Shown one piece after another: positions 5,030-24,296 of a DNA stretch of 37,090 nucleotides. The stretch's first letter is position 1; each line of letters opens with the position of its first letter. Under the pieces are notes generated by a model. It was not told the origin of the DNA. It ran no database searches and saw only the letters and a list, made by a program, of their open reading frames with translations. The translations under genes were made by a program, and so were the position numbers. Origin of the DNA: a virus; the IMG/VR virus record IMGVR_UViG_3300048554_000369, positions 1-37,090 of that record; one strand, 5' to 3'.

Positions 5030-5061
5030 TTGTACTAAATAATAGGTAAAGGATATAAACT

Positions 5062-7224: not shown

Positions 7225-7578
7225 ATGGACGATAGACTACAAAAGGCACTTGCGTTTGCAAATTATAGATTAACGTTGCAAACACAAAGAAAAAACATTG
7301 ATGCTCGGGTTGAATCAATGTTATTACTAAACTATAATAATCATATTTTTAAAGTAACACAAGAACTAATTGGTTATGTATCTGCACAAGTAACTGTAAA
7401 TCCAAAACAAGTATTATACATAGAGGATTCTATAGGCAATACTAGTGCAGTTGAAAAAAGCAAAGACTTTTTAAAAAGTCTTTTACAAACATATAATAAA
7501 GCATTAGAGTTAAAATATAAAGAACAACAAAAGTTAAAAAAAGCTAGGGCTACAAAAACAGTTGTAGGAGCAAAATGA
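7225..7578 (+). CDS. Hypothetical protein, first gene of the island operon
   Basis: A 117-residue basic, mostly helical protein with AGGA upstream of the ATG. The C-terminal 40 residues are Lys-rich (KYKEQQKLKKARATK) and probably form a helix that may bind nucleic acid or another protein. There is no signal peptide or membrane segment. Its stop overlaps the next start (ATGA at 7575-7578), so the two are probably translated together. Family not recognised. Confidence 0.6.
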   Translation: MDDRLQKALAFANYRLTLQTQRKNIDARVESMLLLNYNNHIFKVTQELIGYVSAQVTVNPKQVLYIEDSIGNTSAVEKSKDFLKSLLQTYNKALELKYKEQQKLKKARATKTVVGAK

Positions 7579-8453
7579 CAAAAGGCTTTATGATGTTTGC
7601 TTATAACAATGAGCAAATAGACTATATGAGATTAGCGACTGTTGCAAGTTCGGCTTTAAAAAAATATATGCCAGAGATACCTGTTGTCCTTGTAACCAAT
7701 GAAAGAAGTCTCAAAGATTTTAATAAGAAAAAATCTCAAAGTAACCTAGTAAAAACACTCTGGGACGAAGTCATAATGACTGATCCTGAATACGAAACTA
7801 ATATTAGAATACACAACGACGGTGCTTACAAAAGTTTTAATGCACAATTTACCAACACAAACAAACACGACATATATAATTTAACTCCATTTGATGAGAC
7901 TATACTAATTGATACTGATTATCTAGTTGGTAGTAATAACTTAGAAAAATTATTTGGAGGACAAAGTAGTGTTGCAATGCATCGAGACGCAATGAATTTA
8001 CGTTGCGAAGAACCCTATACTACTGAAAGATGGTTACACTATGCAGGAATACGCATGTGGTGGTCAACTGTAGTTTACTGGAGAAAATCAGAAGAGGCAG
8101 AACACTTTTTTAATGTTTGGGCTCATGTAAAGGACCATTGGGAATATTATAGGTTCTTATATAAATTTCCTGGTAGTTTATATCGTACTGATTATGCCGC
8201 TTCTGTAGCTTGTCATTTATGTGACGGAATGCAAGACGGAGGATTTATTGGACGCATACCTTTACATATGCGTTATCAAGATCAACGTGATGATATTGTA
8301 GAAGTTAAAGATGCAAATGATTGGATTATGTTAAGTAATATGCCAGACGAATATAAAAATATTGCAGTAAGAATTACAGGAGAAGATGTACATATGATGA
8401 ACAAGTTAAGTATACTTCGTAACTATAGAAGTATTATGAGGTGTATGGCATGA
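7575..8453 (+). CDS. Putative GT-A-fold glycosyltransferase-like protein
   Basis: A 292-residue protein. The N-terminus (MTKGFMMFAYNNEQIDYMRL) and the following hydrophobic strand VVLVTNE resemble the nucleotide-sugar-binding start of GT-A proteins. The motif ILIDTDYLV at about residues 111-119 has the D-x-D of metal-dependent GT-A enzymes. Further on, a Trp/Tyr-rich middle (WWSTVVYWRK) and an Asp at YRTDYAAS could form the acceptor side. It starts with GGAG a few bases upstream and ATGA-overlaps the gene before it. It is not obviously paralogous with the three proteins encoded from 10097, but carries the same type of D-x-D. The sugar and acceptor cannot be told. Confidence 0.6.
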   Translation: MTKGFMMFAYNNEQIDYMRLATVASSALKKYMPEIPVVLVTNERSLKDFNKKKSQSNLVKTLWDEVIMTDPEYETNIRIHNDGAYKSFNAQFTNTNKHDIYNLTPFDETILIDTDYLVGSNNLEKLFGGQSSVAMHRDAMNLRCEEPYTTERWLHYAGIRMWWSTVVYWRKSEEAEHFFNVWAHVKDHWEYYRFLYKFPGSLYRTDYAASVACHLCDGMQDGGFIGRIPLHMRYQDQRDDIVEVKDANDWIMLSNMPDEYKNIAVRITGEDVHMMNKLSILRNYRSIMRCMA

Positions 8454-9151
8454 GGTGTTATGTATTTGGAAAAGACATAGATCTTTATAATGTAACTAAA
8501 GAAGATGTACTTACAATTAATAATGATGTTGAAACAATTTATATAGAGTTATTAGAAGATAATCCAAAAAAACAATTATTAGAACTGTCTAGAATTCCAC
8601 TAGAAGATGGAGATATGTTATGCCAGGCTGGACTTGCTCCTAGGCCACTATCATTTAAACTATTAGAAATTGCTAAAGAAAATAAAGAAAATATTGTTCC
8701 AGGAAAACTTGTAGATCATAGGTTACTTGAAATCCCAAACAAGAAACTTTTAAAAAGAAAAGTACAAGAAGAAAATAATCAAACAAGTATTCCTTATATT
8801 ATGTTAATAGGGGATTCAATGAGTGCAGTTGAATCTTTAATGTTAATAGCAAACTTTAAAGAAGAACAGTTGTGGACAAATTACCTACCAGAAAAGTCAG
8901 ACCTCCAGCATTGGTTAAGTGCAATGGTTTCTTTACTTCCTTCTTGGACTTCTCTTGATACTTTTCCTTTAGTTGATTTAAGTATTAGAGATTTAGAAAC
9001 TGATCCAGTGATGTACGCAACAAACACATGGCATGATTGGATTTCATATTATCCGTCAAATGGAAATTTTAAACTAGAAAATCATGTACAATTATTTCCA
9101 GTATGGCTAGATAATTCTAAAAAAACATTAGAGTATGTGTATAATGGCTGA
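8450..9151 (+). CDS. Hypothetical protein in glycosyltransferase cluster
   Basis: A 233-residue protein. I choose the ATG at 8450 because it forms an ATGA overlap with the preceding stop and has GAGGTG upstream; an in-frame ATG lies nine bases earlier. The N-terminal half is acidic and helical. The C-terminal half holds a hydrophobic strand (YIMLIGDSMSAVESLML), then a Trp-rich stretch. No catalytic motif or known family is evident. Its place between two sugar-transferase-like genes suggests a related function, but this is only context. Confidence 0.55.
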   Translation: MRCYVFGKDIDLYNVTKEDVLTINNDVETIYIELLEDNPKKQLLELSRIPLEDGDMLCQAGLAPRPLSFKLLEIAKENKENIVPGKLVDHRLLEIPNKKLLKRKVQEENNQTSIPYIMLIGDSMSAVESLMLIANFKEEQLWTNYLPEKSDLQHWLSAMVSLLPSWTSLDTFPLVDLSIRDLETDPVMYATNTWHDWISYYPSNGNFKLENHVQLFPVWLDNSKKTLEYVYNG

Positions 9152-10100
9152 TATTAAATTTGCAGTTAGAAAAAGAAAACGAGCTAAACAAGAATTTTGG
9201 TCAGTTGAGTATAATGATAAAGGTAGTATTACTAAAATATCTCCAGGAACACAAGACAATAATCCTAGTGCCTTAAGTGTATCTTATTCTAAAATTCAAA
9301 ATATACTGTCTGGAACAGAAAGTCAAAATAATTATATTGTTACAATAAATGAAAAAATTGGAGCATTAGATCTAGTAGACAAACGATCTATATCTGAATA
9401 TACAGTTAGCAGTTATAGTGAATGGCATAGTACTTCATTATACGAAGAAAGTAAAGACCCAGAATTAAAATTTGTATTATTTCCTAAGAAAGGTATTGTA
9501 CGATTAGAACCTAATAGGATCTGGACAACTCGTGCAGTAGAAAATAAAGAAACGGCTCCACTTAAAATCTATATAACAGATAGCACAGATCCTCATATAT
9601 TATTAGGAAACATTAATGTTAAGTTACAACCTTTGCTAGAGAAAGGATATGTAGAATTTTCTTTATGGGATATAATTAATCCATTAGTTATTGATGATAT
9701 AATACACAAGGACAAGAACATACGTTTAAACTTTTCAAAGGTATCTAAAGGAGTAACATTTGTAAGAGCAGAAAAATACTATACATTTAACGGAACATCA
9801 GAGATGCAGACAATAATCTCGCATCCAGGACCTGGAACACATATTACACTATATGTAAAAGATAATGTGCTATGGGCACAAAGTCATTATACGCCGGGTA
9901 GTCCTATTGATGATATATCAGGAAATATAAAAGGTGCTCTCGTTAAAGGTGATGACCCAGATAATTTTGTTAACTGGGTAGAACTTCCAGCATTAATGCT
10001 AAGGCAAAATGCTCCTTTTGAAATTGCTGATTGGCAAGACAACTCAGCTGTAAACCTATTATATAAAGCAAACAATCTAGATATTGGAGTAGAAACATGA
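9144..10100 (+). CDS. Hypothetical protein, possibly virion-associated
   Basis: A 318-residue protein. The ATG at 9144 overlaps the preceding stop by eight bases; an alternative ATG nine bases upstream would give only three extra residues. The N-terminus is strongly basic (RKRKRAKQ). The rest has the alternating beta/turn pattern of phage structural or fibre-decorating proteins, with no Cys cluster and no enzyme motif. Its stop overlaps the next ATG (ATGA). Function unknown. Confidence 0.5.
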   Translation: MADIKFAVRKRKRAKQEFWSVEYNDKGSITKISPGTQDNNPSALSVSYSKIQNILSGTESQNNYIVTINEKIGALDLVDKRSISEYTVSSYSEWHSTSLYEESKDPELKFVLFPKKGIVRLEPNRIWTTRAVENKETAPLKIYITDSTDPHILLGNINVKLQPLLEKGYVEFSLWDIINPLVIDDIIHKDKNIRLNFSKVSKGVTFVRAEKYYTFNGTSEMQTIISHPGPGTHITLYVKDNVLWAQSHYTPGSPIDDISGNIKGALVKGDDPDNFVNWVELPALMLRQNAPFEIADWQDNSAVNLLYKANNLDIGVET

Positions 10101-11071
10101 GTGTGCCTATAAGCGAATATGATGTTGTGTTTATCAGTTACGATGAACCAAATGCAGACGAGAATTGGGCTCATTTACAATCAATTTGTCCTTGGGCTAA
10201 AAGAAGTCACGGAGTATTTGGATCTGATGCTTGCCATAAAGCCGCCGCTAAACTATCTGAAACAGAACGCTTCATTGGTATTGATGCAGATAATAAAGTA
10301 AGAGAAGATTTCTTTGAACTTGAACTAGATATAGAAAAGTTTCACGAAGCTGACGTATTAAGTTGGTCCGGTAAAAATGTAATCAATGGATTAGTATATG
10401 GCAATGGTGGAATTAAGTTGTGGCCTGTAAAAGTAGTAGAACAGATGAGAACACATGAAGAAGTAGACAGCGGAGCAGGTGCTGTTGACTTTTGCTGGGA
10501 TATACATTATCATCAGTTAAACAATATCTATAGTGATGTTTATAATAATAGAACTCCTTACCAAGCATATAGAGCAGGGTTTAGAGAAGGTGTTAAGTTA
10601 GCATTACATAACGGTGAGCCTATGGATTGGCGACAAGTAGCAGAGAAAAATAATTATAAAAATCATAGAAGACTTTTAATATGGATGAGTGTTGGCTCTG
10701 ATGTAGAGAATGGTATGTGGGCAATATATGGTGCTCGTTTAGGTTGCTATATGACAAATCTAAAAAGAAATGAATTTGATTTTACACTAGTACGAGACTT
10801 TGAATGGCATAATAAATATTGGCATGAAGAAGTTGCTCCAAAGTTTTACGGAACAGATGAGCATTGTGTAATAAGCGACTTCTCTTGGAATACAAAAAAA
10901 TTATACAATGAAGTAGAAAAGCTAGGAAGAATATTAAAGCAAGATATGGGTTTAGAAATATCTACACTAAATGAAGAAGCAAGTAAGTTTTATAAAGCCA
11001 GTTACTTTAATCCTATCAGACTAGCACCATTAGTTAGAGAAGCTGATGTTGATCAGTTAATAGTAGGTTGA
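10097..11071 (+). CDS. Putative glycosyltransferase-like protein, paralogue 1
   Basis: A 324-residue protein, ATGA-overlapping the previous gene. It begins with a hydrophobic strand plus SYDEPNADENW, and carries a D-x-D (GIDADN, about residues 55-60), NGLVYGNGGIKLW (about 97-109), DFCWD (about 131-135) and TPYQAYRAGFREGVKL (about 155-170). The arrangement of a D-A-D after a hydrophobic strand followed by a G-N-G-G loop fits a GT-A-type nucleotide-sugar transferase. The donor and acceptor are unknown. The same blocks recur in the gene at 11929, and in weaker form at 11076, showing local duplication. The sequence shows the paralogy; the transferase function is inferred. Confidence 0.6.
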   Translation: MSVPISEYDVVFISYDEPNADENWAHLQSICPWAKRSHGVFGSDACHKAAAKLSETERFIGIDADNKVREDFFELELDIEKFHEADVLSWSGKNVINGLVYGNGGIKLWPVKVVEQMRTHEEVDSGAGAVDFCWDIHYHQLNNIYSDVYNNRTPYQAYRAGFREGVKLALHNGEPMDWRQVAEKNNYKNHRRLLIWMSVGSDVENGMWAIYGARLGCYMTNLKRNEFDFTLVRDFEWHNKYWHEEVAPKFYGTDEHCVISDFSWNTKKLYNEVEKLGRILKQDMGLEISTLNEEASKFYKASYFNPIRLAPLVREADVDQLIVG

Positions 11072-11075
11072 TTAG

Positions 11076-11942
11076 ATGTTAGATGTATTTTTTATTTCCC
11101 AAGGCGAATGGAACGCAGAAGAAAACTACCAGAGACTAACAAAATTTGTTCCAAACATCAAAGAAGTAAGAGATGTTAAAGGAATCTATGAAGTACATAA
11201 AACTTGTGCAGAACAGTCAGCAACAGACAACTTCTATGTAGTTGATGCTGATGCTTGGATTGTAGATGACTTTGATTTTAATTTTGTTCCAGATCCAAAC
11301 GAACTACATTGGGATCATCCAGAAGACGAGTGTGTAATTGTATGGAATAGTGTTAATCCAGTCAATGGATTAGAATATGGATATGGCGGAGTTAAGTTGT
11401 TTCCTAAAAAGCCATTTTTAGAAGGTCGCAGTTGGGAAATTGATTTGTCTACAACAATAGGAGCATCTACTATTGCTAAGTCTAAAGTTAGTTGTGAAAC
11501 AAGATTTAACGCAACACCAGATAGTGCGTTTATAGGCGCATTTAGAGAGTGTGCAAAACTAGCATCATTAGGTTCAGTTTTTGGTGCAATTAAAAGAAGA
11601 GAACAACAAAGAGAAAAAGAATTTGTTAGGTTGGAAGAACATATACAAAAACAAGATTGGGATAGCAAATCTAAGTCATCATACAGAGGCGGCAAAAGAA
11701 GTATTATAATTGAAAAGTATAGAGAAAGTTTGCTAACACATAATTACTTTGATGAAGTGTTCGAAGCATCTGTGAGATATCATGTATGGTCAACAGTATC
11801 AGAAGGATTAAATGCAGAGTGGGTTATTAAAGGAGCAAAAGCTGGAGTTAAGCATGGTTTAAAATATGCTAATAGTGAGAAAATGAATCTAATTAATAAC
11901 TGGGAATGGTTAGAAAAGGAATTTGACAATGTCAATGTTTAA
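11076..11942 (+). CDS. Putative glycosyltransferase-like protein, diverged paralogue 2
   Basis: A 288-residue protein beginning four bases after the previous stop. It keeps the family blocks: DVFFISQGEWNAEENYQRL at the start, VVDADAW (about residues 47-53), NGLEYGYGGVKLF (about 93-105) and GAFRECAKL (about 154-162). It differs from its two neighbours by an altered YGYGG loop, loss of the DFCWD block and a charged Lys/Arg/Gln-rich insertion around residues 168-205. The retained D-x-D suggests it is still active, possibly with a changed acceptor. It overlaps the next gene by 14 bases. Confidence 0.6.
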   Translation: MLDVFFISQGEWNAEENYQRLTKFVPNIKEVRDVKGIYEVHKTCAEQSATDNFYVVDADAWIVDDFDFNFVPDPNELHWDHPEDECVIVWNSVNPVNGLEYGYGGVKLFPKKPFLEGRSWEIDLSTTIGASTIAKSKVSCETRFNATPDSAFIGAFRECAKLASLGSVFGAIKRREQQREKEFVRLEEHIQKQDWDSKSKSSYRGGKRSIIIEKYRESLLTHNYFDEVFEASVRYHVWSTVSEGLNAEWVIKGAKAGVKHGLKYANSEKMNLINNWEWLEKEFDNVNV

Positions 11943-12918
11943 ACTATCAAAAGACGATAAAGCAAAGATACTTGCAGGAAATGTAAAGCATACTGCTAGA
12001 ACTACCAGAGATATTCCTATTGTATTTCTAAGTTTTGATGAGCCAAATGCTGACGCTAACTGGAAAACATTACAACTAACAACACCACATCAAGAAGTAC
12101 AACGTGTACATGGTGTTAAAGGATTTGATGCTTGTCATAAAGCCGCGGCTCAGGTTTTTCCTAATGCTGGATATGTAATCACAGTTGATGCGGATAGTAT
12201 AGTAGATCCTGCTTTCTTTGAATTACGTCTTCCTAAAGGTATAGGATTTATGTCTTACACTTGGGGCGGTAGACAGTTTACAAATGGATTAATGTATGGT
12301 AATGGCGGATTAAAACTATGGAATACAGAACATCTAATGTCAATGAAAAGTCACGAAGCATCAAATACTGAACGAGATGAAGTTGATTTTTGTTGGGACG
12401 AATCACAGTACAAGGAACTACCCGGTTGTTATTCAACTGTTTATACAAATGCATCTCCTTATCAGGCTTTTCGTGTAGGCTTTAGAGAAGGAGTTAAACT
12501 TTCAACCGAAGCTGGAAAAGTAATTAATAAAGACAATATTAAAGAAATAATGCATGCCGCAAACTATCAACGATTGCTAACATGGCTAACAGTTGGTGCT
12601 GATGTTAAAAATGGTATATGGAGTATTATAGGTGCTCGTACTGCTATTAGACAGTTATATTTTAATAATTTTGACTACACATTGATCAGGGATTACGAAT
12701 GGTTTAATGAATACTTCAAGAGTTTTGAAACAATAACAGAAAGAGGCATGAAGGAACTCCAAGATGCAGTAAATGAGGTTTACGGATTTAACTTGCCAAT
12801 ATTAGACGAAAGTGCTAGTTTACTCTTTAAACAGTTACAGTTACATCCTGAAAAACCTTTAACATATGATGATGTACATTGGAGAACTAACTTAAAGTTG
12901 TTTGGATGGTGGCAGTAA
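11929..12918 (+). CDS. Putative glycosyltransferase-like protein, paralogue 3
   Basis: A 329-residue protein. The ATG at 11929 is preferred because AAGGA lies about eight bases upstream; a TTG six bases earlier is less likely. It has a 20-residue N-terminal extension, then the family blocks SFDEPNADANW, TVDADS, NGLMYGNGGLKLW, DFCWD and SPYQAFRVGFREGVKL. It is clearly closest to paralogue 1. The stop TAA shares its last base with the next ATG (TAATG). The D-x-D and G-N-G-G elements suggest GT-A-type sugar transfer, by inference. Three copies in a row point to duplication and divergence rather than redundancy. Confidence 0.6.
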   Translation: MSMFKLSKDDKAKILAGNVKHTARTTRDIPIVFLSFDEPNADANWKTLQLTTPHQEVQRVHGVKGFDACHKAAAQVFPNAGYVITVDADSIVDPAFFELRLPKGIGFMSYTWGGRQFTNGLMYGNGGLKLWNTEHLMSMKSHEASNTERDEVDFCWDESQYKELPGCYSTVYTNASPYQAFRVGFREGVKLSTEAGKVINKDNIKEIMHAANYQRLLTWLTVGADVKNGIWSIIGARTAIRQLYFNNFDYTLIRDYEWFNEYFKSFETITERGMKELQDAVNEVYGFNLPILDESASLLFKQLQLHPEKPLTYDDVHWRTNLKLFGWWQ

Positions 12919-14183
12919 TGGTAAGACTACAAGAAGCAAAACAAAAGAATAATACTAGACTAGTACCAGGAAGTAAAGAAGATACTATTAGAAAAAATAG
13001 AATAGCTTTTTTGTATTTTATGGAGGAGTTTATTGGGTTTCGTAGTAGCTTACATTGGCTTAGAAGAAACTTAGAAACAGGATCAGACGATGACTTAGAA
13101 CATTTGTTTTATAATGTTGGAATCGAAAACTTCTTAAACTTTCAGGATTTAGTAGCATGTGTAGAACCTGCTAAAGAAAAAACAAGATGGAATCAGTTAA
13201 GACTAGCACTAGCACTTGGAATGTATCATAGAGAAGATAATAATATCAAGTTTACATCTGCACCCAATGAAGTAATTAATACAATTTGGAAAGGTTGCCA
13301 AGTAGTAGAAGATATTGCTCAACCTGTATGGGCTACAGCAGGTTGGATAAAAGAAAACGGAACTGATGCATTAGAAAACATAGCCTGGGGTGCTAATAAA
13401 CTAGCAGAAGCAAAACAAGGAAACATCTATGAGGTATGTTACTTTGCAAGACTGTTAGTAGGAAGAACAACTATGTTAGAAAATTTAGTTGACGATAATA
13501 TTGAAGTACTTGCAAATAATGCAAGTATAAATTATTTTCCTGAATTACAATCAGAACTCAAACGTATGTCTAAAGCAATAGCATATAGTCCAAAGTTAAA
13601 CTGGCACGATGCATTAAGTAGAAATCAAATTAAAAGTAAAGTTTGGTTACTAGACAAATTAAAAGAAGTAAACTGGATTACAGAAGATACTACTACAATT
13701 ATAGTTGGAGGTTGGCTTGGAATATTGCCTTTCTTAGCAAACTGTCGTAAACAAGAGTTTGGAAAAGTTGTTAATGTAGATATTGACAAGACTGTTAACG
13801 ATCCATCTTGTATATTAAATGTACCAGCACCAGACATAACAGATGTTGATGGTAACGAGATGTCAATGGCAGGAGTATCAACTGAACGTTACCGAGTATC
13901 AAATGAAGATATTAGATCCATGGACTTTACCAAAATGGAAAATTTTGTTATAGTTGATACAATAACAGAACACTTTCATGACCACGGAGGTTGGGTCGAG
14001 TCTCTTCCTAAAGGAACTAGAGTTGTATTACAAGGTAACAATATGTTTGATGTTCCAGATCATGTTAATTGCTTTTCTCATTTAGACGAGTTTGTTGAAG
14101 AATGTGGAGTATCGAAGATACATTATCAAGGTGAATTAAACTTAGAAAAATGCAATAGGTTTATGGTTATAGGAGAGGTATAA
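12918..14183 (+). CDS. Putative class I SAM-dependent methyltransferase-like protein
   Basis: A 421-residue protein; the ATG at 12918 is coupled to the previous stop as TAATG. The first 240 residues are helical and Trp/Glu-rich, without a recognised fold. About residues 258-275 hold TTIIVGGWLGILPF, a strand followed by a Gly-rich loop as in motif I of class I methyltransferases. At about 283-291 VVNVDID supplies the acidic residue expected at the end of strand 2. FVIVDTITEHF near residue 345 matches the motif IV strand. The methyl acceptor is unknown. Position right after three putative sugar transferases allows methylation of a glycan, but this is inference. Confidence 0.6.
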   Translation: MVRLQEAKQKNNTRLVPGSKEDTIRKNRIAFLYFMEEFIGFRSSLHWLRRNLETGSDDDLEHLFYNVGIENFLNFQDLVACVEPAKEKTRWNQLRLALALGMYHREDNNIKFTSAPNEVINTIWKGCQVVEDIAQPVWATAGWIKENGTDALENIAWGANKLAEAKQGNIYEVCYFARLLVGRTTMLENLVDDNIEVLANNASINYFPELQSELKRMSKAIAYSPKLNWHDALSRNQIKSKVWLLDKLKEVNWITEDTTTIIVGGWLGILPFLANCRKQEFGKVVNVDIDKTVNDPSCILNVPAPDITDVDGNEMSMAGVSTERYRVSNEDIRSMDFTKMENFVIVDTITEHFHDHGGWVESLPKGTRVVLQGNNMFDVPDHVNCFSHLDEFVEECGVSKIHYQGELNLEKCNRFMVIGEV

Positions 14184-14710
14184 TGAGTAAGAAGTACCGT
14201 ATGCGACATAACGACAAGCCTTATGTTATCAACGATGTAGAACAGTTGCATGAGGAATGTAAAAAATTAGCATGGGATAACGAACTAGGAGACTTTAGAT
14301 CTCAAACAGCATTACAATCAGGCGGCATAGGAGATCATGCTGAAGGTACAGGAACATATTTAGGCGACAACGAGCATCAATGGGATAAATTACGTCCAGA
14401 CTTAATTGGAACATATTGGGAAAAGTTCTTTGACGAATTTCCATGGAAAGTATATCGCACAAGAATAATGATTATGGAGCCTCGTAGCTGTTATAGTATG
14501 CATAGAGATCCTCATCAAAGATTACATATAGCAACATATACAAACAAACAAGCTCGGTTTTTATTTGTTGATCCTCCTGAATTAGTAGAGATACCTGCCA
14601 ATGGTGGAGTGTTCAAAGTCGACACAAGAGAGTTACATACTGCAATAAATTGTGGAAACGAAAAACGTTGGCACCTACTGATGAGCTTGGACAGCAACGA
14701 CATCGATTGA
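14183..14710 (+). CDS. 2-oxoglutarate/Fe(II) oxygenase-like protein (Asp/Asn hydroxylase type)
   Basis: A 175-residue protein starting at a TAATG overlap with a GGAG site upstream. The iron-binding facial triad can be read as H107-x-D109 (MHRDPHQRLHIATYTN) and H152 (RELHTAIN), with R162 (KRWHLLMS) placed to bind the 2-oxoglutarate carboxylate. The order and spacing match the cupin fold of aspartyl/asparaginyl beta-hydroxylase-like proteins. It is short and has no membrane anchor, so it is probably cytoplasmic. The substrate is not evident; a glycan, protein or small molecule made by the neighbouring enzymes is possible. Confidence 0.7.
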   Translation: MSKKYRMRHNDKPYVINDVEQLHEECKKLAWDNELGDFRSQTALQSGGIGDHAEGTGTYLGDNEHQWDKLRPDLIGTYWEKFFDEFPWKVYRTRIMIMEPRSCYSMHRDPHQRLHIATYTNKQARFLFVDPPELVEIPANGGVFKVDTRELHTAINCGNEKRWHLLMSLDSNDID

Positions 14711-14725
14711 TAGATACATACTAGT

Positions 14726-15373: not shown

Positions 15374-15521
15374 AAATGGATATACATATGTTTCCTCAGA
15401 ACTTATTGATGAATTATATACTAGAATCAAAGCACTAGAGTATAGAGTAGCACAACATGACGCAGACATTAACGGACTAGACTGGGTAGTAAACGGAGAA
15501 AACTTTGAGGACGATAAATGA
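15360..15521 (+). CDS. Small coiled-coil protein (53 residues)
   Basis: A short gene overlapping the previous stop by 14 bases, with AAAGGA six bases before the ATG. It ends in an ATGA overlap with the next gene. Residues about 11-36 (SELIDELYTRIKALEYRVAQ and onward) have heptad spacing of Leu/Ile/Val, typical of a short coiled coil, and the C-terminus is acidic. The close fit to its neighbours supports real translation. It resembles small phage proteins of unknown function with a trimeric or dimeric coil. Confidence 0.7.
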   Translation: MTTVKNGYTYVSSELIDELYTRIKALEYRVAQHDADINGLDWVVNGENFEDDK

Positions 15522-16675: not shown

Positions 16676-17310
16676 AACAATTTAACCATACTAATCTACA
16701 ACAAGTTTTAGAACTTGCTGATAGTATCTACGATGGAGTGGATCCTAGTAAGTATCCAGATTTTAGAGTAGGATTTGATATTGATCAGGTTAAAGAAAGA
16801 GAAAAGTTTTTTAGAATGTTTATGTTAGATCCTGACAAGTTTAAAAACTTTAGTCAGCGAGCCTGTTGGGGAGTATATAAAAATGATAAACTAATTTCAG
16901 CTGTAGGAGTAAGACGTTTACCTCATTCTCCTAGTTGGTGCTTTGCTTGGATTTTGTCGCCTTCAATGGGAATTAAATTTGTACCAATGTTTAGAGAAAT
17001 AGTTACAGAGCTTTGTAATATACACGAAGCTATTGGATTAAATGAATTCTTTTTAACTTATCCGGAAGATAGAGAAGATCCGTATAGTCGTATTATGTTA
17101 TTCTTACGGGAAAAGTATTATACCTTTGTTGAGATGACAATTCCAGCAAAAACATTAACACACTATAGTTTAGTTAATGAACTGCTAGGAAGAACACTAC
17201 ATCCTCATAATATGAACTTTAGAAGATATATACTACGAAGAACTGATACAGAAGCACCCTCAGAAGGTGGCAAAGCAATCAGAAATAATAGGAGAATAAA
17301 TGGCAATTAG
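16657..17310 (+). CDS. Possible GNAT-like acyltransferase
   Basis: A 217-residue protein overlapping the previous gene by 19 bases. The start (MSAYKLKQFNHTNLQQVLEL) has the strand-helix shape common to GNAT proteins, and CWGVYKNDKLISAVGVRRL (about residues 71-89) matches the central beta-hairpin in which a substrate-facing strand carries G-V-x-V-R. A clear acetyl-CoA pyrophosphate loop is missing. Function is thus uncertain. It precedes the desaturase gene, with which it overlaps by 11 bases. Confidence 0.45.
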   Translation: MSAYKLKQFNHTNLQQVLELADSIYDGVDPSKYPDFRVGFDIDQVKEREKFFRMFMLDPDKFKNFSQRACWGVYKNDKLISAVGVRRLPHSPSWCFAWILSPSMGIKFVPMFREIVTELCNIHEAIGLNEFFLTYPEDREDPYSRIMLFLREKYYTFVEMTIPAKTLTHYSLVNELLGRTLHPHNMNFRRYILRRTDTEAPSEGGKAIRNNRRINGN

Positions 17311-18211
17311 TACTTGGATACAAGGGCAGGTAGGCCTATACAAAAAAACAAAACAAATACCTTTTATAGTAGCAATTTGGTTACCATATCATTTACTTGC
17401 TGTAACACTAATACCTTATTTAATTTACACTGGTTGGGAATGGTGGTACTTAGTTGCAATGTTATGTGGATGGATTACATTAGATGGTATTGGAAATAAT
17501 TTAACACTACATCGACTATTAAGTCATAAATCCTGGAAGCCACGTGAATGGATGAAACCATTCTTATACTGGTTAGCAGTTATGGTAGGAGAAGGAAGTC
17601 CTCTATGGTGGGCATCATTACATCGAGGACATCATCATAAAGTTAGTGATCAGCCAGGTAAGGACATTCACACTCCTGTAGAAAACGGCTGGTGGCATAG
17701 TTATATGGGTTGGCAGTTTGATATTAAACAGGATAGTGTAAGTTTTCGTTATGCCGTTGACCTATTAAGAGATAAAAAGATTGTGTGGTTGCATAATCAT
17801 TATAATAAAATTATATACGGAACATTACTAGTTAGTTTGTTATTATTTGGATGGCAATTTACATTTTGGTTTTGGATTATGGGAGCATTATCTAGTTTAC
17901 ACATGGACGGAATGGTTAATACATTTGGACATGTTCCTGCCGCAGGCTACCAAAACTTTAATAACAAAGACTGTAGTACAAACTGTTGGCCAATAGGATA
18001 TTTTCATTTTGGAAGTGGTTGGCATAATAACCATCATAGAGAAGCAAGTAGCTTTGATTTTGGAGCAAGTGTAAGTGGTAGATGGCACGAGTTTGATCCT
18101 TGCTTAATTATAATGTTACCGTTTGCTCCACTTTCGGAAATAAAAAGGTTGTGGGGAAACAGAAAACATGCTATAATAGAAAGAAACTCAGAAGCAAAGG
18201 AAACAGTATGA
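17300..18211 (+). CDS. Fatty acid (acyl) desaturase, delta-9 type
   Basis: A 303-residue integral membrane protein with AGGAG before the ATG. All three histidine boxes of the acyl-lipid/acyl-CoA delta-9 desaturase family are visible: H71-RLLS-H76, H108-RG-H111-H112 and H242-NN-H245-H246, holding the di-iron centre. Hydrophobic segments near 22-60, 85-100 and 172-202 fit the usual four membrane helices. It would introduce a double bond into host or phage-directed acyl chains, using electrons from a ferredoxin or similar donor; a ferredoxin is encoded at the far end of the window. ATGA overlap with thyX. Family assignment is strong; substrate is not. Confidence 0.9.
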   Translation: MAISTWIQGQVGLYKKTKQIPFIVAIWLPYHLLAVTLIPYLIYTGWEWWYLVAMLCGWITLDGIGNNLTLHRLLSHKSWKPREWMKPFLYWLAVMVGEGSPLWWASLHRGHHHKVSDQPGKDIHTPVENGWWHSYMGWQFDIKQDSVSFRYAVDLLRDKKIVWLHNHYNKIIYGTLLVSLLLFGWQFTFWFWIMGALSSLHMDGMVNTFGHVPAAGYQNFNNKDCSTNCWPIGYFHFGSGWHNNHHREASSFDFGASVSGRWHEFDPCLIIMLPFAPLSEIKRLWGNRKHAIIERNSEAKETV

Positions 18212-19077
18212 CATTATGTTCGGAGATAGATTTTGATAAAGACCCGAATTACAAACAAGTATTAGATAAAGGATTTATTGGCCTAGTTGATTATATGGGC
18301 ACAGATAACTCTATTGTACAAGCCGCTCGTGTTAGTTACGGTGATGGTACTAAAAAAGCTAGTAGTGATAGAGCATTAATACGTTATCTAATGCGACATG
18401 AACACACTACGCCATTCGAGATGTGCGAAGTAAAGTTTCACATTAAACTGCCTATTTTTGTAATGAGGCAATTAGTTAGACATAGGACGGCATCATTAAA
18501 TGAATATTCAGCCCGCTACTCGGTACTTACAGACGAAGTCTATGTACCCAACTCAGAGAACATCAAGCCACAAAGTACAACCAATAAGCAAGGTAGAGAA
18601 GGAGAGCTTGACGAAGAAACAAAAAGACGAATCAGTGACGATATTAACGAGTCATGGGATCGTGATTACTCCCTCTACACAGAACATTCCGATAACCTTA
18701 ACTTGGCTAGAGAGACTGCGAGGCAAGTTCTTCCAGTAGGCGGATATACAGAATGTTACTGGAAATCCAATCTTAAAAACTTTTTACATTATGCTAGACT
18801 ACGAATGGATAGCCATGCACAATGGGAAATACAAGAATATGCTAGAGCAATGTATGATATGGTAAAAGAAAAGTTTCCTGTAGCATGTGAAGCCTTTGAG
18901 GATTACCAAGAGCAATCAGTAAAGCTGAGTAAACAAGAACTTGTGTTTGTTAAATCTCTCATGTTCAGAGAAATTGATATTAATAGGATAGACGAGATAG
19001 GCGAAAACTTTGGTATCAGTAAACGAGAAATGCAAGAGATTGTAGAAAAATTTGGGTTGAATGATATACAAAATTAA
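18208..19077 (+). CDS. thyX: Flavin-dependent thymidylate synthase ThyX
   Basis: A 289-residue protein. I use the ATG at 18208, which forms an ATGA overlap with the desaturase gene; the frame is open further upstream, but only as a shadow of that gene. The ThyX signature RHRTASLNEYSARYS sits at residues 91-105, and Q88-L-V-R-H-R precedes it. The protein makes dTMP from dUMP with methylenetetrahydrofolate and FAD, active as a homotetramer. Length is within the range of phage and bacterial ThyX. It supplies thymidine for an AT-rich phage genome. Its presence inside the island operon rather than with replication genes is unusual. Confidence 0.95.
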   Translation: MTLCSEIDFDKDPNYKQVLDKGFIGLVDYMGTDNSIVQAARVSYGDGTKKASSDRALIRYLMRHEHTTPFEMCEVKFHIKLPIFVMRQLVRHRTASLNEYSARYSVLTDEVYVPNSENIKPQSTTNKQGREGELDEETKRRISDDINESWDRDYSLYTEHSDNLNLARETARQVLPVGGYTECYWKSNLKNFLHYARLRMDSHAQWEIQEYARAMYDMVKEKFPVACEAFEDYQEQSVKLSKQELVFVKSLMFREIDINRIDEIGENFGISKREMQEIVEKFGLNDIQN

Positions 19078-19867
19078 TGGAAAGCCTTACGTTAACTTAG
19101 ACAATCACATTGATATTGAAGGGCTTAATAAATTAAAAATAAAACTATGTAAGGCTTTTGCTGATTCATGGTTAGGATTAAAAGTAGGTTGTCAAGTACT
19201 TCCTGCAGTAGCTGGTGCTGGATTGAATTGGCCAGAAGAGAATCCAGGAGAGGAACTATCTACTGCATTAAAACGTATTGCTGGAGATAATACTGCACCA
19301 GGACACGAACAAGTGCATGAATACCTAGCAACAGGTAAGCCTAGTTATGCATTAACGTTTGTAAAGTTAGTAACTGAAGCACAAGGCATTGGTTATAACA
19401 TGTTTATAAAGCAACCTACTACAAAAGATTATGCAGATAAGCACTTAGCAAAGAACAATAAAGAAGGACCCTTTTATGATAACTTTAAGTTTTTTATGGA
19501 TTGGGTAGACGAACAAAATATCTTTAGTGAAATTGGTAGAACTTTAATATTCTATAATGACCAGGATCAGCAATGTATAACACATAGAGATCATAATCCT
19601 TTAAATAGGGTTACAGACCCAGATGAGTTTATTTGGATTAATATGTTTATGGATAGGAAAGCATTTTTTGTAGAAGATAAGGATAGTGATACAAGACATT
19701 ATATTAAGAGTCAAGTAGCATGGTTTGATACTGCTAACTATCACGGAAGTGATACAAGTCCTTATTCTGCTTTCAGTATTAGAGTAGATGGAGTCTTTAC
19801 AGACCAGTTTAAGAAAAAGATTAACTACAAACTAAAAAGTAAAAAATCAATATTTGGAAACACTTAG
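19061..19867 (+). CDS. 2-oxoglutarate/Fe(II) oxygenase-like protein
   Basis: A 268-residue protein starting 17 bases inside the end of thyX. The iron-binding triad reads H175-x-D177 (ITHRDHN) and H228 (TANYHGSD), followed by R241 (FSIRVDG) at the position that usually binds the 2-oxoglutarate carboxylate. The N-terminal 160 residues are mixed helix and loop, with no recognised domain. Predicted cytoplasmic. Last gene of the + strand operon. Its final 21 bases overlap the 3' end of the convergent minus-strand gene, so no terminator can sit between them. Substrate unknown. Confidence 0.7.
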   Translation: MIYKINGKPYVNLDNHIDIEGLNKLKIKLCKAFADSWLGLKVGCQVLPAVAGAGLNWPEENPGEELSTALKRIAGDNTAPGHEQVHEYLATGKPSYALTFVKLVTEAQGIGYNMFIKQPTTKDYADKHLAKNNKEGPFYDNFKFFMDWVDEQNIFSEIGRTLIFYNDQDQQCITHRDHNPLNRVTDPDEFIWINMFMDRKAFFVEDKDSDTRHYIKSQVAWFDTANYHGSDTSPYSAFSIRVDGVFTDQFKKKINYKLKSKKSIFGNT

Positions 19868-20905
19868 TTTTCCGTCTTCTTCATATAGATAACCCCAAGA
19901 ATTATTATAACGTGTAATAGTTGGTAAACTAGGCCACTTTGTTTTGTGTATAAGATAAGTTGAATCCTCAACTACTTCATTGATAAGTTTCTTTGCCGGA
20001 AGTTTATAACTTGCCCAAGTATCTCCAAGTTTTGGTTCTTCTGTATATAATGCCCACAGTTGGAAATCTTCTGTATCAAAGAAGTTAATAATATGTTCGC
20101 ACATATACTCTGCTTGTTGTTTATTTGGAGAATGCATACCCATACGATACTTAACAGCCTGCCATTTCATGCTATAGTTAATCCACCATAAAAATTCATG
20201 ATTAGTAGCAATATCAATAGGACTTGCATTTACTAAGTCATATAACATTTGTTCACGTTGATCTCTTGTTTCTGGGTCAGACTTATTTAATAACCAGTCT
20301 AACGAACCAGATTCCCAATCTTTATGTAAGCAATCAAACTTCCCTGTTGCATCCATATAGCTTTTAACAGTTAGACTTCCAAATAAATTATCTGCACATT
20401 CTCCAGTAACTACACTATAACTTGGGTTAGTAATAATGTCATAAAAGTTATTACTAGAAATTAAACAATGTCCAAACTTATCTAATATAACATTATTAAA
20501 AAACTTAGGATTTTCAATTTGACTATCTTCATTGAATGCTAAGAGTATATGATCTTTAATATCCTCCCAATATGGACTAGATATCAATAAGCAAACAATT
20601 AATGTACTATCAATGCCACCTGAGTACATAATAACTAACTTTTCTTTACTTTCGTCGTTTTGAAAAGATTTAATAATGTTAGTCATTCTGCTAACAGAAC
20701 AACTTTCAAAACTTTCTGGAGTTCTTTTTTCTGGTATTGGACTATTGTTAAAAACATCTACTCCTAAGTCAAGTGTACCAGTCCTGTCACTTAAACTAAT
20801 CCAAGGATTAAACATACCTAAAAAGTCTCGTTGTATATTGCTAATATTAGCTCCTTTACCAGAGTTAAGTATTCTATGCGGAATATAGTATAATAAATTT
20901 TTCAT
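19847..20905 (-). CDS. Asparagine-synthase-like (AsnB C-terminal domain) protein without glutaminase domain
   Basis: A 352-residue protein. The PP-loop SGGIDST is at residues 95-101 (IMYSGGIDSTLIV), and VVTGECADNLFGS (about 166-178) is the counterpart of the S-G-E-G-A-D-E-L-F-G block of asparagine synthetases. The N-terminal glutamine amidotransferase domain with its Cys2 is missing; the protein instead begins with about 70 unrelated residues. It should therefore activate a carboxylate as the acyl-AMP and use free ammonia or an amine as acceptor. Stand-alone or reshaped AsnB domains form amides or lactams in some natural-product pathways. Coupled to the upstream gene by TAATG. Family call firm, reaction open. 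Confidence 0.8.
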   Translation of the reverse strand: MKNLLYYIPHRILNSGKGANISNIQRDFLGMFNPWISLSDRTGTLDLGVDVFNNSPIPEKRTPESFESCSVSRMTNIIKSFQNDESKEKLVIMYSGGIDSTLIVCLLISSPYWEDIKDHILLAFNEDSQIENPKFFNNVILDKFGHCLISSNNFYDIITNPSYSVVTGECADNLFGSLTVKSYMDATGKFDCLHKDWESGSLDWLLNKSDPETRDQREQMLYDLVNASPIDIATNHEFLWWINYSMKWQAVKYRMGMHSPNKQQAEYMCEHIINFFDTEDFQLWALYTEEPKLGDTWASYKLPAKKLINEVVEDSTYLIHKTKWPSLPTITRYNNSWGYLYEEDGKLSVSKY

Positions 20906-21534
20906 TACATTAACATGCTCACAAATGATTCTTCGGCTAACGTTGCTCGAATATCCTGAACATCCTCTTTAGTTTTTATAGTATTAATTGCCATTTGTGT
21001 TTTAATTCGAATTCTTTCTAATTTCATTATTTGGAATTTTAGATTATCTGCTTTTGCTATAACTAGATTAGCAATAGTTTCTAAAGGAAGTTTTCTAAAT
21101 TGTGCCTCATCTTGTATAAAACCTATATCAGATGTATCTCCTTTAATAACACGTCTTGCTTGTTCTTCTTTTATTAGATATGCCGTTTCTTGCCAAGGAA
21201 CAAGACTTTGGAAACGTTTATATCCATGCTCTAATCTTTGATGAAGCTCTTTTGTTAACATTACTCTAGCAAGAAGTTTTTTGCTCAGTATTTCAGTATC
21301 ATTGTCTCGATCTTCTTCGTCAACAAATTTAGTAGTTCTAGCATCAATATATTGTAATTTATAATTAAGTTTATTAGAACGAAGTAATGCAAGTTCTTCT
21401 CCAGTTACACCATACACTCTACATATGGCACGAAATTCTCCAGAGCAAGCCTGTTCTAATGTATTTAAATCTGAACACCAAGCCAGTATACTGTTTTCAG
21501 CAGTAGTGGCTAAAGCAACCCAATGTTGTTCCAT
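20905..21534 (-). CDS. Hypothetical helical protein
   Basis: A 209-residue protein with GGAG eight bases before the ATG. Mostly helical, with a long charged helical region (about 80-195) rich in Lys, Arg, Glu and Leu and no membrane or signal segment. Its stop overlaps the start of the AsnB-like gene (TAATG), so the two are probably co-translated and may act together. I do not recognise the family. Confidence 0.55.
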   Translation of the reverse strand: MEQHWVALATTAENSILAWCSDLNTLEQACSGEFRAICRVYGVTGEELALLRSNKLNYKLQYIDARTTKFVDEEDRDNDTEILSKKLLARVMLTKELHQRLEHGYKRFQSLVPWQETAYLIKEEQARRVIKGDTSDIGFIQDEAQFRKLPLETIANLVIAKADNLKFQIMKLERIRIKTQMAINTIKTKEDVQDIRATLAEESFVSMLM

Positions 21535-21571
21535 GAATGTACTCCGTTGTTACTTTACTTAAGATAATAAT

Positions 21572-22555
21572 TTAATCTTGTCTAACCAATTTTGCACCTG
21601 GGATAATATCTCCATCACATAACATATCCCATGGATGTTTTTTCTCGTAGAATTCGTTTTGTGTCCAAGTTTGGGTTTCTTCATTGAAGTCAAACCACGG
21701 AGCAACACCTAACATAATATGTGTACGGAAAAAAGGCTCTTCTGGTTTCTCTGAACAATAAGCACGATGAGGAATACCTGTGTCCCAACTATATGCATAC
21801 GGTGCTTCTAAGTGAATTAGTTTTCCTACGTTTGTTTGTTGCTCTAGTACAAACTCTTTAGATGTTTTAATAGCAATATTAATTCTTAAATTGTTAAACA
21901 TCATTTCGTCTGTGTGCCACGCAACACCTGGTCTTTGTGTTGCACGTTCTGCTCCCTTTTGACCCATTGCTTGTGTAGAACCATGAGAAGAAATTATACG
22001 AAGACTAGATCTAACCATACTTCTTTTTAAACTATCTAAGAATGTTCCTAAGTATCCATGCTTACTACCTTCTGTACGAAAAGCCATGCTATAAGTATCA
22101 TAATGTGTATCTTTTCTTACTGCAATTTTTCTAGCCTCTGATTGATCCATTCTACTATAAGGACTAACACGACCATCTCCAGACTTTGCACCAAACTCCT
22201 GCTTAATATGCTTAAAGTGATTTCCTTGCACTTGTTCATGTGGGTCTGTTTCAATTCCGTCAATATGCAAAGGATTATATGTTAAGCCCATTCCTAAATA
22301 ACCAGTATCACTTTTTAATGATCCATCTGGTCTTTTACCTCTTAGTCTATACCCAAACATACCTACATTATCTAAAGCCTCTAAAGTATCTTTGATTAAT
22401 AAGTCTGTATCTGTTTCTGTTAATTCTAGTTTAATTAAACTAGGATAAGGTTCTCGAGGTTGTAACGTGCTTTTCATAAAAGGGGCTCTTCTATGCAAAG
22501 AGTTAGCGACAGGTATTTCTTCTGCCGCATCTGATAATTTTAAAGATATAGTCAT
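21572..22555 (-). CDS. 2-oxoglutarate/Fe(II) oxygenase-like protein (327 residues)
   Basis: Starts at an ATG with AAGGAG seven bases upstream. The likely iron-binding triad is H214-x-D216 (VAWHTDEMMF) and H263 (DTGIPHRAYC), with R277 (FFRTHIMLGVAPWFD) as 2-oxoglutarate ligand. The region before it (about 85-165) is polar and His-rich and may form a substrate lid. This is the longest of the five oxygenase-like proteins in the window and does not look like a recent copy of the others. PHRAYC-type motifs with the following R-T-H strand also occur in 2OG enzymes acting on small molecules. Substrate unknown. Confidence 0.7.
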   Translation of the reverse strand: MTISLKLSDAAEEIPVANSLHRRAPFMKSTLQPREPYPSLIKLELTETDTDLLIKDTLEALDNVGMFGYRLRGKRPDGSLKSDTGYLGMGLTYNPLHIDGIETDPHEQVQGNHFKHIKQEFGAKSGDGRVSPYSRMDQSEARKIAVRKDTHYDTYSMAFRTEGSKHGYLGTFLDSLKRSMVRSSLRIISSHGSTQAMGQKGAERATQRPGVAWHTDEMMFNNLRINIAIKTSKEFVLEQQTNVGKLIHLEAPYAYSWDTGIPHRAYCSEKPEEPFFRTHIMLGVAPWFDFNEETQTWTQNEFYEKKHPWDMLCDGDIIPGAKLVRQD

Positions 22556-22576
22556 GATAACTCCTTCTATACTATA

Positions 22577-23158
22577 TTATAACCATTTTAAATCTGGCGT
22601 AAATCGAATGGAAAGCATTACTCTAGGTTTTTCCTTGCATAAGTTAATTGCTTGATGTGGAACATCAATCCTAACTAAGTGAGGATCCTTAATAGTTACA
22701 GACGCAATTAGTTTTGGCTCTCCGTCCCATTCAAGTTTTAAATATTTGTTAGAGTTTGTTTTTCTTCCCATTACAGTTGCATCTGCTATTTTTTGAACCT
22801 CTAATCTGTACGGAGCTTCTCCGTACCAATCCATACTACCAATACCAGTATTACGAATTGGAATATTTAATGCATAATTTGATGCACCTGATCTGTCTGC
22901 TCTAAAACCATCAATATGTAGGCCTTGTGCCTTATCTTTACCTAACACAAAAATTAACCCAGACTTCAAACTTAAACCATTCCAAACTGGATGCGGATTT
23001 GCCTTTATAAATTCATCTATTATTTCATAAAAGTTATATTCGGGTGATTGAATTGTTACTGTTTTATTAATTTTATGTACATACAAAGCCTTATTAATTC
23101 TAAACACTAAGTCCTCAATATTAGGAATATCGTCAATTTTTTGAAAAAGTTTTTCCAT
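22577..23158 (-). CDS. 2-oxoglutarate/Fe(II) oxygenase-like protein (193 residues)
   Basis: I take the ATG at 23158; a TTG ten codons upstream is possible, and neither has a good ribosome site. The triad can be read as H81-x-D83 (GLHIDGFRADRSG) and H168 (DVPHQAINL), with R179 (KPRVMLSIRF) after it. The strand NYALNIPIRN between the two halves fits the double-stranded beta-helix. Short like the one at 14183. It lies 21 bases from the next gene in the same direction and opposite the fatty acid hydroxylase gene at 23210, with 51 bases between the two starts. Confidence 0.65.
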   Translation of the reverse strand: MEKLFQKIDDIPNIEDLVFRINKALYVHKINKTVTIQSPEYNFYEIIDEFIKANPHPVWNGLSLKSGLIFVLGKDKAQGLHIDGFRADRSGASNYALNIPIRNTGIGSMDWYGEAPYRLEVQKIADATVMGRKTNSNKYLKLEWDGEPKLIASVTIKDPHLVRIDVPHQAINLCKEKPRVMLSIRFTPDLKWL

Positions 23159-23209
23159 ACTACTACTTATCGGATTAACTAAAATCAATTAACCAAATAA
23201 ATAGCAGTA

Positions 23210-23671
23210 ATGATACACATGATACTCACATTTTTGTTATGGACCTTATTACTTTATATTATACATAGGGTCATTCATGTTCACGGACGTAGATGGTTTC
23301 CTGTGTCTTTTAAAGCTCATAACGATCATCACAAATATATTAACACCACTGGCGGAACACAATGGCATTGGAATAATTGTTTTCTGTTTAACGATACCTG
23401 GTTATCAACTTTAGATCTTTGGATTACAGAAGTTGTTCCTACTTTAATCTTTAGTTATATAACCGGAGAATGGTGGGTTAGTATTGCATACTATTTTTGG
23501 GCCGCTTTCTTACAAGAAGTAATTGAACACAATCCTAAATTTAGTTGGTATCCAGCAATTACATCTGGAAAATGGCATTTAGTACATCATGCAGAGCCTT
23601 ATAGAAACTATGGATTATTTGTTCCTATTTGGGATTTATTATTTGGTAGTTACAGGGCATACTCTAAATAG
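23210..23671 (+). CDS. Fatty acid hydroxylase (sterol desaturase) superfamily protein
   Basis: A 153-residue membrane protein, the only + strand gene after 19867. The histidine boxes of this di-iron family are visible: H19-RVI-H23, H37-ND-H40-H41 and H123-LV-H126-H127, plus EH at 106-107. Hydrophobic stretches at about 3-18 and 75-103 would be membrane helices. Members such as beta-carotene hydroxylases and lipid hydroxylases insert a hydroxyl group into lipids or carotenoids. A possible late-type motif (CAAATAAATA) lies seven bases before the ATG. Its last eight bases overlap the convergent gene. Family sure, substrate unknown. Confidence 0.85.
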   Translation: MIHMILTFLLWTLLLYIIHRVIHVHGRRWFPVSFKAHNDHHKYINTTGGTQWHWNNCFLFNDTWLSTLDLWITEVVPTLIFSYITGEWWVSIAYYFWAAFLQEVIEHNPKFSWYPAITSGKWHLVHHAEPYRNYGLFVPIWDLLFGSYRAYSK

Positions 23672-24296
23672 ATGTTTTATCTATCCAAGCATTAAACAAA
23701 TAATTAGTAACTTCGGGTCTATTTCTATTAGCAACTAAGGATGGGTAGATAGTAATCCAATGTCTATTAACTATTTCTTTACTTGTGATATATGCCATAT
23801 CAATTGGGTGTAGTTTAAATTTAACTGATTTATCTGGATAAATGTAAGTTTGTATTGTTCCGTATAATCTTCTTTTTTCTATCTCTTCAATAGCCAAAGC
23901 CTTATAACCATGTTTATCATTGTTGATATCGGCATTACGTTGCATAACCCATCCGCCATCTTTTCTTAACCATTGACTAGTTACAGCATATACTCGTTGA
24001 TGACATATCATATCGATTAAGATAACATCATCTGGAACTTCGTTATCTTGATATTCATCCAAGTCAAATTGTTTAAACTTGTGCATCTTTTGTAAAGCAA
24101 CACCTGGCTTATCCCATGCTATTGTATCAAACGAACCTTGAAAGCCAAAGTCAAGTAATGGTAGTTCACCAACTTCAGCAGGCTCATATTGGGGAACAAA
24201 CTCATCTGTTAGCTTTACGCCAATAGTAAGTGATCTTTCAAATACTTGAAAGAATCTAGTTGCAATTTCACTTGGATTAATAAAAACAAAATCCAT
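23664..24296 (-). CDS. Hypothetical phage protein
   Basis: A 210-residue soluble protein with GGAG before the ATG, three bases downstream of the gene at 24300. Mixed alpha/beta composition, with PEVTNYLFNAW at the C-terminus and no Cys motif. Family unknown. It overlaps the end of the convergent fatty acid hydroxylase gene by eight bases. Confidence 0.55.
   Translation of the reverse strand: MDFVFINPSEIATRFFQVFERSLTIGVKLTDEFVPQYEPAEVGELPLLDFGFQGSFDTIAWDKPGVALQKMHKFKQFDLDEYQDNEVPDDVILIDMICHQRVYAVTSQWLRKDGGWVMQRNADINNDKHGYKALAIEEIEKRRLYGTIQTYIYPDKSVKFKLHPIDMAYITSKEIVNRHWITIYPSLVANRNRPEVTNYLFNAWIDKTSI

Follow-up and report, generated by a model that had tools for sequence, protein, structure and literature searches.

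An enzyme-rich viral gene island composed of two adjacent, separately conserved modules

Gene content and conservation of the island

The virus record IMGVR_UViG_3300048554_000369 of IMG/VR has a length of 37,090 bases and was analysed as a whole (the window). Directly behind a virion structural and tail-fibre region (g1–g4) it carries a run of enzyme genes, which a first-pass annotation had regarded as a single biosynthetic island joining sugar, methyl, acyl, amide and oxygenase chemistry. The first gene, g1, lies at the left end of the window and encodes a structural protein of 1,367 residues, for which PHROG gives a virion structural match (9e-94) and part of which aligns at ~24–27% identity with jumbo phage proteins (Salicola SCTP-2, PA5oct, 121Q and others). 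A 244 kb twin record repeats the region through g20 at 100% identity, and the twin contig stops there; given this twin and the jumbo phage-like g1, the window probably represents part of the genome of a large tailed phage. From g5 to g20 (7225–19867) sixteen genes are encoded on one strand and are packed as tightly as the first-pass annotation had described, with 14 of the 15 junctions overlapping or measuring at most 15 bp and one measuring 144 bp; beyond g20, the genes g21–g24 and g26 are on the minus strand and g25 is on the plus strand. Since dense packing is usual in phages, gene overlap alone was not counted as evidence. Comparison with relatives reveals that the island consists of two adjacent, separately conserved modules and is not one unit: module A, with glycosyltransferase (GT)-like and methyltransferase-like genes (g6–g12), and module B, which would comprise g14, g16, g17 and g18, together with g20–g22, g24, g25 and probably g13. 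The genes concerned are as follows.

g1–g4, 271..7163, plus strand: virion structural/tail-fibre region directly 5' of module A; g3 has several PHROG matches, tail fibre among them, and g4 has none
g5, 7225..7578, plus strand: small protein accompanying g1–g4 and g6
g6, 7575..8453, plus strand: candidate GT-A-like protein by its DTD motif, module A
g7, 8441..9151, plus strand: its place is held by family c23 in distant relatives
g8, 9135..10100, plus strand: lies between g6 and g9
g9, 10097..11071, plus strand: putative GT2-like glycosyltransferase, module A
g10, 11076..11942, plus strand: GT2-like paralogue
g11, 11923..12918, plus strand: GT2-like paralogue, start probably the ATG at 11929
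g12, 12906..14183, plus strand: predicted class I S-adenosylmethionine (SAM) methyltransferase domain preceded by a helical N-terminal domain
g13, 14183..14710, plus strand: 2-oxoglutarate (2OG)/Fe(II) oxygenase-like protein of the Asp/Arg hydroxylase type
g14, 14726..15373, plus strand: GNAT-like acyltransferase
g15, 15518..15727, plus strand: 69 residues with two hydrophobic segments
g16, 15728..16675, plus strand: PP-loop synthetase-like protein, module B core
g17, 16657..17310, plus strand: module B core, GNAT-like by eye and unconfirmed
g18, 17300..18211, plus strand: membrane fatty acid desaturase with three His boxes, module B core
g20, 19061..19867, plus strand: 2OG oxygenase-like protein
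g21, 19847..20905, minus strand: AsnB-type synthetase of 352 amino acids without glutaminase domain
g22, 20905..21534, minus strand: customary upstream partner of g21
g23, 21572..22555, minus strand: 2OG oxygenase-like protein, lineage-restricted
g24, 22577..23188, minus strand: 2OG oxygenase-like protein
g25, 23210..23671, plus strand: fatty acid hydroxylase

Within the lineage of the window, a scan with g16 yielded 59 viral loci of 42–100% identity (among these contigs L002, L003 and L005 replace L006, L008 and L007, and L001 and L004 are excluded), in which eight genes were tested for their order, namely g9, g10, g12, g13, g14, g16, g17 and g18. Those present share order and strand in 59/59 loci, and the complete set of eight is found in all 30 loci with room for it; a check for genes occurring scattered and in random combinations, which had been suggested along with the first-pass annotation, therefore found no such pattern. 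The genes g11, g20 and g23 are missing from some of these loci, g23 being present in 2 of the 59. The ratio of non-synonymous to synonymous substitutions (dN/dS) is 0.02–0.41 in 40 of 41 comparisons of g5–g26 with L003 and L005, a set that excludes g15, as well as g26 versus L005. The tested genes are a conserved, selected set that is under purifying selection in the lineage of the window, and chance packing of the genes was rejected on account of the conserved order and the low dN/dS.

In more distant relatives the two modules part. Relatives of the g9 family occur in at least 598 viral stretches, from which 80 GT loci were kept (with flanks of at most 10 kb, in some cases truncated at a contig end), 65 of them with less than 60% identity. 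Among these 65 distant GT loci, g6 is present in 63, g5 in 58, and g6 together with g3 or g5 in 59, while g16, g18 and an acyl carrier protein (ACP) are found in one each and g21 in none. The distant g16 sample consists of the best 80 of 211 viral relatives by likeness to the g16 protein of locus L211, with flanks of up to 8 kb; 76 of the kept proteins are 51–100% and four are 30–38% identical to that of L211, which in turn is 27% identical to the g16 of the window. Here, g16 is directly followed by a member of the g17/c9 family (g17 versus c9: hhalign 97%) in 68 of the 70 loci with room; 65/66 have a desaturase no more than 2.5 kb from g16, 21/76 an ACP gene immediately upstream and 40/76 g14 upstream. 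After removal of g16 proteins that are at least 80% alike, a g17-like gene comes next in 44/45 loci, with a desaturase in 42/43, ACP in 14/49 and g14 in 25/49, and when g16 is grouped at 60%, the corresponding counts are 11/11, 10/10, 1/11 and 6/11. The core of g16, g17 and desaturase is deep, and an ACP beside it characterises one part of the relatives. Of the distant g16 loci, 66 have enough sequence on either side; a 2OG-type gene is found in 56 of these, a radical-SAM gene in 36, g21 in 10 and a GT (g6 or g9) in three. Taking the distant GT loci as control, the Fisher p-value is 9e-6 for ACP and 1e-6 for g18, which is present in 12/29 distant g21 loci versus 1/65, and these values reflect linkage and not independent origins, as the loci are related by descent. 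Since GT loci are found without g16, g18 and g21, and g16 loci without GTs, the GT and methyltransferase genes are considered to go with the tail-fibre block, and the PP-loop, acyl and desaturase genes to form a cassette of their own. One pathway for the whole set, as proposed in the first-pass annotation, was rejected as the main reading since modules A and B separate in the distant loci; of the co-conservation of GT, oxygenase and AsnB-like genes for which a search had been suggested, the order from g9 to g18 is kept in the window's own lineage, but g21 is absent from all 65 distant GT loci.

The ACP genes of the relatives lie among further enzyme genes. Two of the ACPs were run against Pfam and match PP-binding (3.7e-15 for L182, 1.4e-6 for L211), and in a desaturase-led scan of 61 loci, 46 with g16 and 14 with an ACP, DSL is present in 38/38 ACP matches; g16 is often missing beside the less similar desaturases. 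A single strand of L211 encodes a g14-like protein, ACP, g16, a g17-like protein, the desaturase, a 2OG-like protein (by eye) and an Asp/Arg-hydroxylase-type protein (1.4e-6), then radical SAM/SPASM, and continues with a second 2OG-like protein (by eye), a GNAT (3.7e-6), c8 and g21. The module region of L182 includes ACP, a 4HBT thioesterase (2.5e-9), TauD (9.7e-19) and a fatty acid hydroxylase (3.3e-17), and in G010 an ACP is located close to a further desaturase-like gene and to what looks by eye like an oxygenase. Also beside module B, L211:11016-13598 shows a weak aminotransferase match (E 0.079) and, by eye, a sulfotransferase-like gene and a third PP-loop-like gene with SGxDSE.

Predicted functions of the encoded proteins

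When the proteins of the window were searched directly against Pfam and PHROG, most gave no match, so that families were built from relatives. In module A, g9, g10 and g11 represent one paralogous family (hhalign 99.3–100%), in which the DxD residues D63 and D65 are invariant across 27 sequences, and Pfam Glycos_transf_2 is matched by 7/27 members of the g9 family (best E 1.6e-4), the window's own g9 not being among them. The DxD motif and these family matches identify them as putative GT2/GT-A-like glycosyltransferases. Thus, three of the four GT-A-like proteins of the first-pass annotation stand, but g6 is unconfirmed as a GT, having the DTD motif only, with no match against Pfam and the PDB and no mutual profile match with g9–g11; its identity to the farthest aligned relative is 48%. 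Weak likeness (87%) was seen between g6 and family c23, which occurs in 59/65 distant GT loci and compares with g7 by hhalign at merely 27%. The fold of g12 is as had been guessed: its AlphaFold2 (AF2) model (pLDDT 87) matches class I SAM methyltransferases over residues 228–424 with a VIA Z of 14.6 (root-mean-square deviation, rmsd, 3.1; 174 aligned), where VIA comparisons leave room for folds outside the VIA listing, and yields 83 Foldseek matches at E<=0.001, so that g12 is predicted to carry the class I SAM methyltransferase (Rossmann) fold. Profile searches against the PDB yielded nothing usable for g6, the g9 family, g12, g17 and g22. The distant GT loci furthermore contain SPASM-type radical-SAM open reading frames (ORFs), which are present in 47/65 and number 154, of which 150 have CxxxCxxC. 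Five or more are found in at least 12/65 loci, and in L088:7286-17282 eight such ORFs follow in tandem right behind tail-fibre and GT genes, the last being cut by the locus end. No sugar-nucleotide enzyme was recognised by Pfam among the 21 island ORFs g5–g25 (g26 lay outside the scan); a Pfam Epimerase match is present somewhere in 9/14 related virus records (G004, G005, G007, G010–G012, G015, G016 and G018), being short and weak in G011 and G012.

Regarding the two PP-loop/AsnB-like enzymes that had been proposed, g21 is supported as AsnB-type, while g16 has the motif together with weak NAD-synthetase matches only. In g16 the motif reads SGGLDSE, and SGGxDSE is invariant across 10 diverse sequences. 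In g21 the motifs are SGGIDST and GECADNLFGS, with S95, G96, G97, D99, S100, G168 and D172 invariant in 34 sequences and E169 kept in at least 90%. The AF2 model of g21, built from these 34 sequences, has a pLDDT of 93, and its twelve best VIA matches are all AsnB-type (Z 10.0–12.5), after which Z falls to 6.7; they comprise TsnB9 with Z 12.5 (rmsd 5.0, 264 aligned) and ASNS with Z 11.7 (3.5, 201), and beta-lactam synthetase and carbapenam synthetase are also among the nearest folds. In motif and predicted domain fold g21 resembles AsnB-type synthetases, sharing the synthetase-domain fold and the PP-loop with TsnB9, beta-lactam synthetase, carbapenam synthetase and AsnB, but differs from these amide synthetases in lacking the N-terminal Ntn glutaminase domain, such that residue 1 of the model aligns to residue 116–137 of the full-length chains, and in its usual pairing with g22 or c8. 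Among 78 g21 loci, kept from 190 relatives, g22 or the remote c8 is located directly upstream at 76/84 g21 places (40/41, 7/8 and 29/35 by identity band); c8 compares with the wide g22 cluster at 93% and with the g22 alignment alone at <30% (hhalign). Conceivably, g22 may be a dedicated partner, a carrier or a substrate of the AsnB-like g21. The terminus SFLSMLM of g22 is kept in close relatives.

All four proteins for which a 2OG oxygenase had been suggested show HxD and a distal His. In g13, H107, D109, H152 and H164 are each present in at least 53/54 sequences, and the Pfam match (E 0.007) is below the cut-off; H175, D177 and H228 of g20 are found in 19/19 sequences and H91, D93 and H178 of g24 in 31/31. 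H214-x-D216 of g23 occurs in 3/3 sequences, only three being checkable. Pfam gave no match for g20, g23 and g24, and its support for the group is weak. As judged by these residues, g13, g20 and g24 appear to keep the HxD...H iron triad of 2OG/Fe(II) oxygenases. The desaturase and the hydroxylase, both named in the first-pass annotation, exceed their Pfam cut-offs, g18 with 1.3e-15 (58.3 bits versus 29.7; His boxes at 71, 108 and 242) and g25 with 1.2e-12 (48.8 bits versus 31). Of the possible GNATs, g14 is recovered through its wider family, in which 9/21 members match Acetyltransf_1 (best 3.9e-5), and its sole match in the PDB profile search (E 0.4) is an acyltransferase; g17 was left without support. 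The position between g14 and g16, held by the ACP in many relatives, is taken in the window by g15, which among relatives was seen in the twin contig alone.

Possible products and rival explanations

The reading that we tentatively prefer, and that may well hold, is that module B is a cassette acting on carrier-bound acyl chains to give an acyl-amide or aminolipid, and that module A modifies virion fibres. From the gene content, the motifs, the predicted folds of g12 and g21, the co-conservation and the ACPs of relatives, we infer substrates and product as follows. The acyl chain would be held by the virus's own ACP in some relatives and by a host ACP in the window's lineage, and would be modified by the desaturase g18 and by the hydroxylase g25. 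The PP-loop enzymes g16 and g21 could activate a carboxylate by adenylation and couple it with an amine, forming an amide, and the GNAT-like g14, perhaps also g17, could transfer the acyl group onto an amine. The 2OG oxygenases would then hydroxylate the product, leaving an acyl-amide or aminolipid that is unsaturated and hydroxylated and that acts within or on the infected cell. Module A, behind the tail-fibre genes, would place sugars and methyl groups onto virion fibres. Of the three uses that had been proposed, a small molecule or lipid is hence favoured for module B and fibre decoration for module A, in each case as a presumed role. The scheme of module B, not any compared sequence, resembles SbzI/SbzC of SB-203208 and the N-acyl amino acid synthase FeeM, where a GNAT takes the acyl group from a carrier protein, although these systems are bacterial and use adenylate-forming enzymes (PMC6331615). 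A bolder form of the preferred reading, possible but more doubtful, would see a virus-only natural-product system, common to large uncultivated phages, with a dedicated core of ACP, PP-loop synthetase, GNAT and desaturase and with exchangeable oxygenase and radical-SAM tailoring, which during infection produces a chemically new acyl-amide family that has no cellular counterpart.

Several results weigh against the preferred reading. No ACP was detected in the window (0/1 at E<=1) or in the 244 kb twin record, and Pfam PP-binding is matched in 5/33 distinct records, with just two (G012 and G023) having it in module B; the matches of G016 and G018 are far from module B, and that of G018 is without DSL. 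The distant loci share ancestry, the g16 proteins falling into just 12 groups at 60% and 5 at 50%, with ACP upstream in 1/11 and 0/4. The enzyme assignments are also affected: PDB profile searches with g16 yielded weak matches to NAD synthetase (E 0.0046) and ThiI, leaving the PP-loop tie weak, the best Foldseek match of g21 is human asparagine synthetase at E 2e-3 with none <1e-3, Acetyltransf_1 is matched by 0/17 g14 proteins of the window's own lineage, and g17 has no PDB match with profiles of 13 and 25 sequences and no Pfam GNAT match in the window and L211 members. Being present in 10 of the 66 distant g16 loci, g21 is outside the minimal core, and 15/61 desaturase-led loci are without g16, so that membrane lipids could be the only substrate of the desaturase. 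An activating ligase, a ketosynthase or an exporter was not recognised in the island, though no search by name was made, and position is the sole basis for the fibre role of module A.

The latter role could be extended to the whole island, with all enzymes acting on fibre proteins and g22 serving as chaperone or substrate. The company of g6 with g3 or g5 in 59/65 distant GT loci and the SPASM-type radical-SAM genes in 47/65 agree with such virion decoration, and Asp/Arg hydroxylases have protein substrates elsewhere. However, module B mostly occurs apart from GTs (g6 or g9 in 3/66), and the relatives' ACP, the membrane desaturase and the thioesterase have no obvious role in protein modification, which makes decoration throughout somewhat unlikely. 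An account in which desaturase and hydroxylase are ordinary auxiliary lipid genes that tune host membrane fluidity, their neighbours being unrelated, can draw on published viral desaturases with a proposed fluidity role (PMC7300359), on distant desaturases in three phage records and on the g16-less desaturase loci. It is unlikely given the fixed g16 and g17 neighbours and the ACP in some relatives versus 1/65 in the control.

No less unlikely is a single pathway of all enzymes, leading for example to a glycosylated and methylated lipid or small molecule: a sugar could indeed be attached to the product of module B, and the eight tested genes, which derive from both modules, stand in order in 30/30 own-lineage loci with room, yet the modules part in distant relatives. 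Finally, tRNA is a frequent target of PP-loop proteins, and weak QueC-like PHROG matches (g21 with E 0.0077, its L063 relative with 1.7e-5) would be compatible with PP-loop, GNAT and radical-SAM enzymes modifying host or phage tRNA. Such RNA or nucleotide modification is highly improbable, since the folds closest to that of g21 are AsnB-type and PP-loop proteins of other kinds score Z <=6.7, and since ACP and a membrane desaturase have no obvious part in it.

Relation to known systems and further observations

Phage auxiliary genes are commonly viewed as single genes borrowed from the host. By contrast, a multi-enzyme acyl/amide cassette, with a core of about five genes, has retained the order of that core between viral groups whose g16 proteins are only ~27–30% identical, and if a compound is made, phages would run a secondary metabolism of their own during infection. 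The enzyme types are known, and for their fixed combination in viruses no record was found, as no description of the cassette or gene set turned up in the open-access literature. Phage gene clusters for lipopolysaccharide (LPS) and sugars exist, e.g. in cyanophage P-SSM2, and have several GTs together like the island, whereas the GTs of the island adjoin tail-fibre genes and no sugar-nucleotide enzyme is among the scanned ORFs. Fatty acid desaturases of the same superfamily have been published in genomes of Arctic brine viruses, and lipid desaturases of cyanophages are cited in the same article (PMC7300359). There, viral desaturases are regarded as auxiliary genes that serve membrane fluidity, while the desaturase described here is part of a fixed set of genes that includes a PP-loop enzyme and, in a portion of the relatives, ACP.

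A megablast search against 50,697 phage records found no DNA similar to the window, and tblastn with nine queries of the island families (g12, g9, g16, g6, the L062 relative of g6, g25, one distant GT and two distant g21) found no match in the same records; the tenth query, the desaturase g18, matched three phage records distantly (24–27%). Scans with g16 and g21 profiles revealed no relative in the genomes of 84,980 species of bacteria and archaea, and as these are seed-pattern scans they do not prove absence.

Inside the span of the island, though absent from the first-pass list, lies one further gene.

g19, 18100-19077, plus strand: ThyX (Pfam 4.4e-55), true start probably the ATG at 18208

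Its dN/dS versus L003 is 4.7, non-synonymous exceeding synonymous changes, which was set aside as a possible artefact of alignment or start, while the value versus L005 is normal. Outside the island, g48 (36111-36869) shows an HYD...H pattern resembling a further 2OG oxygenase.

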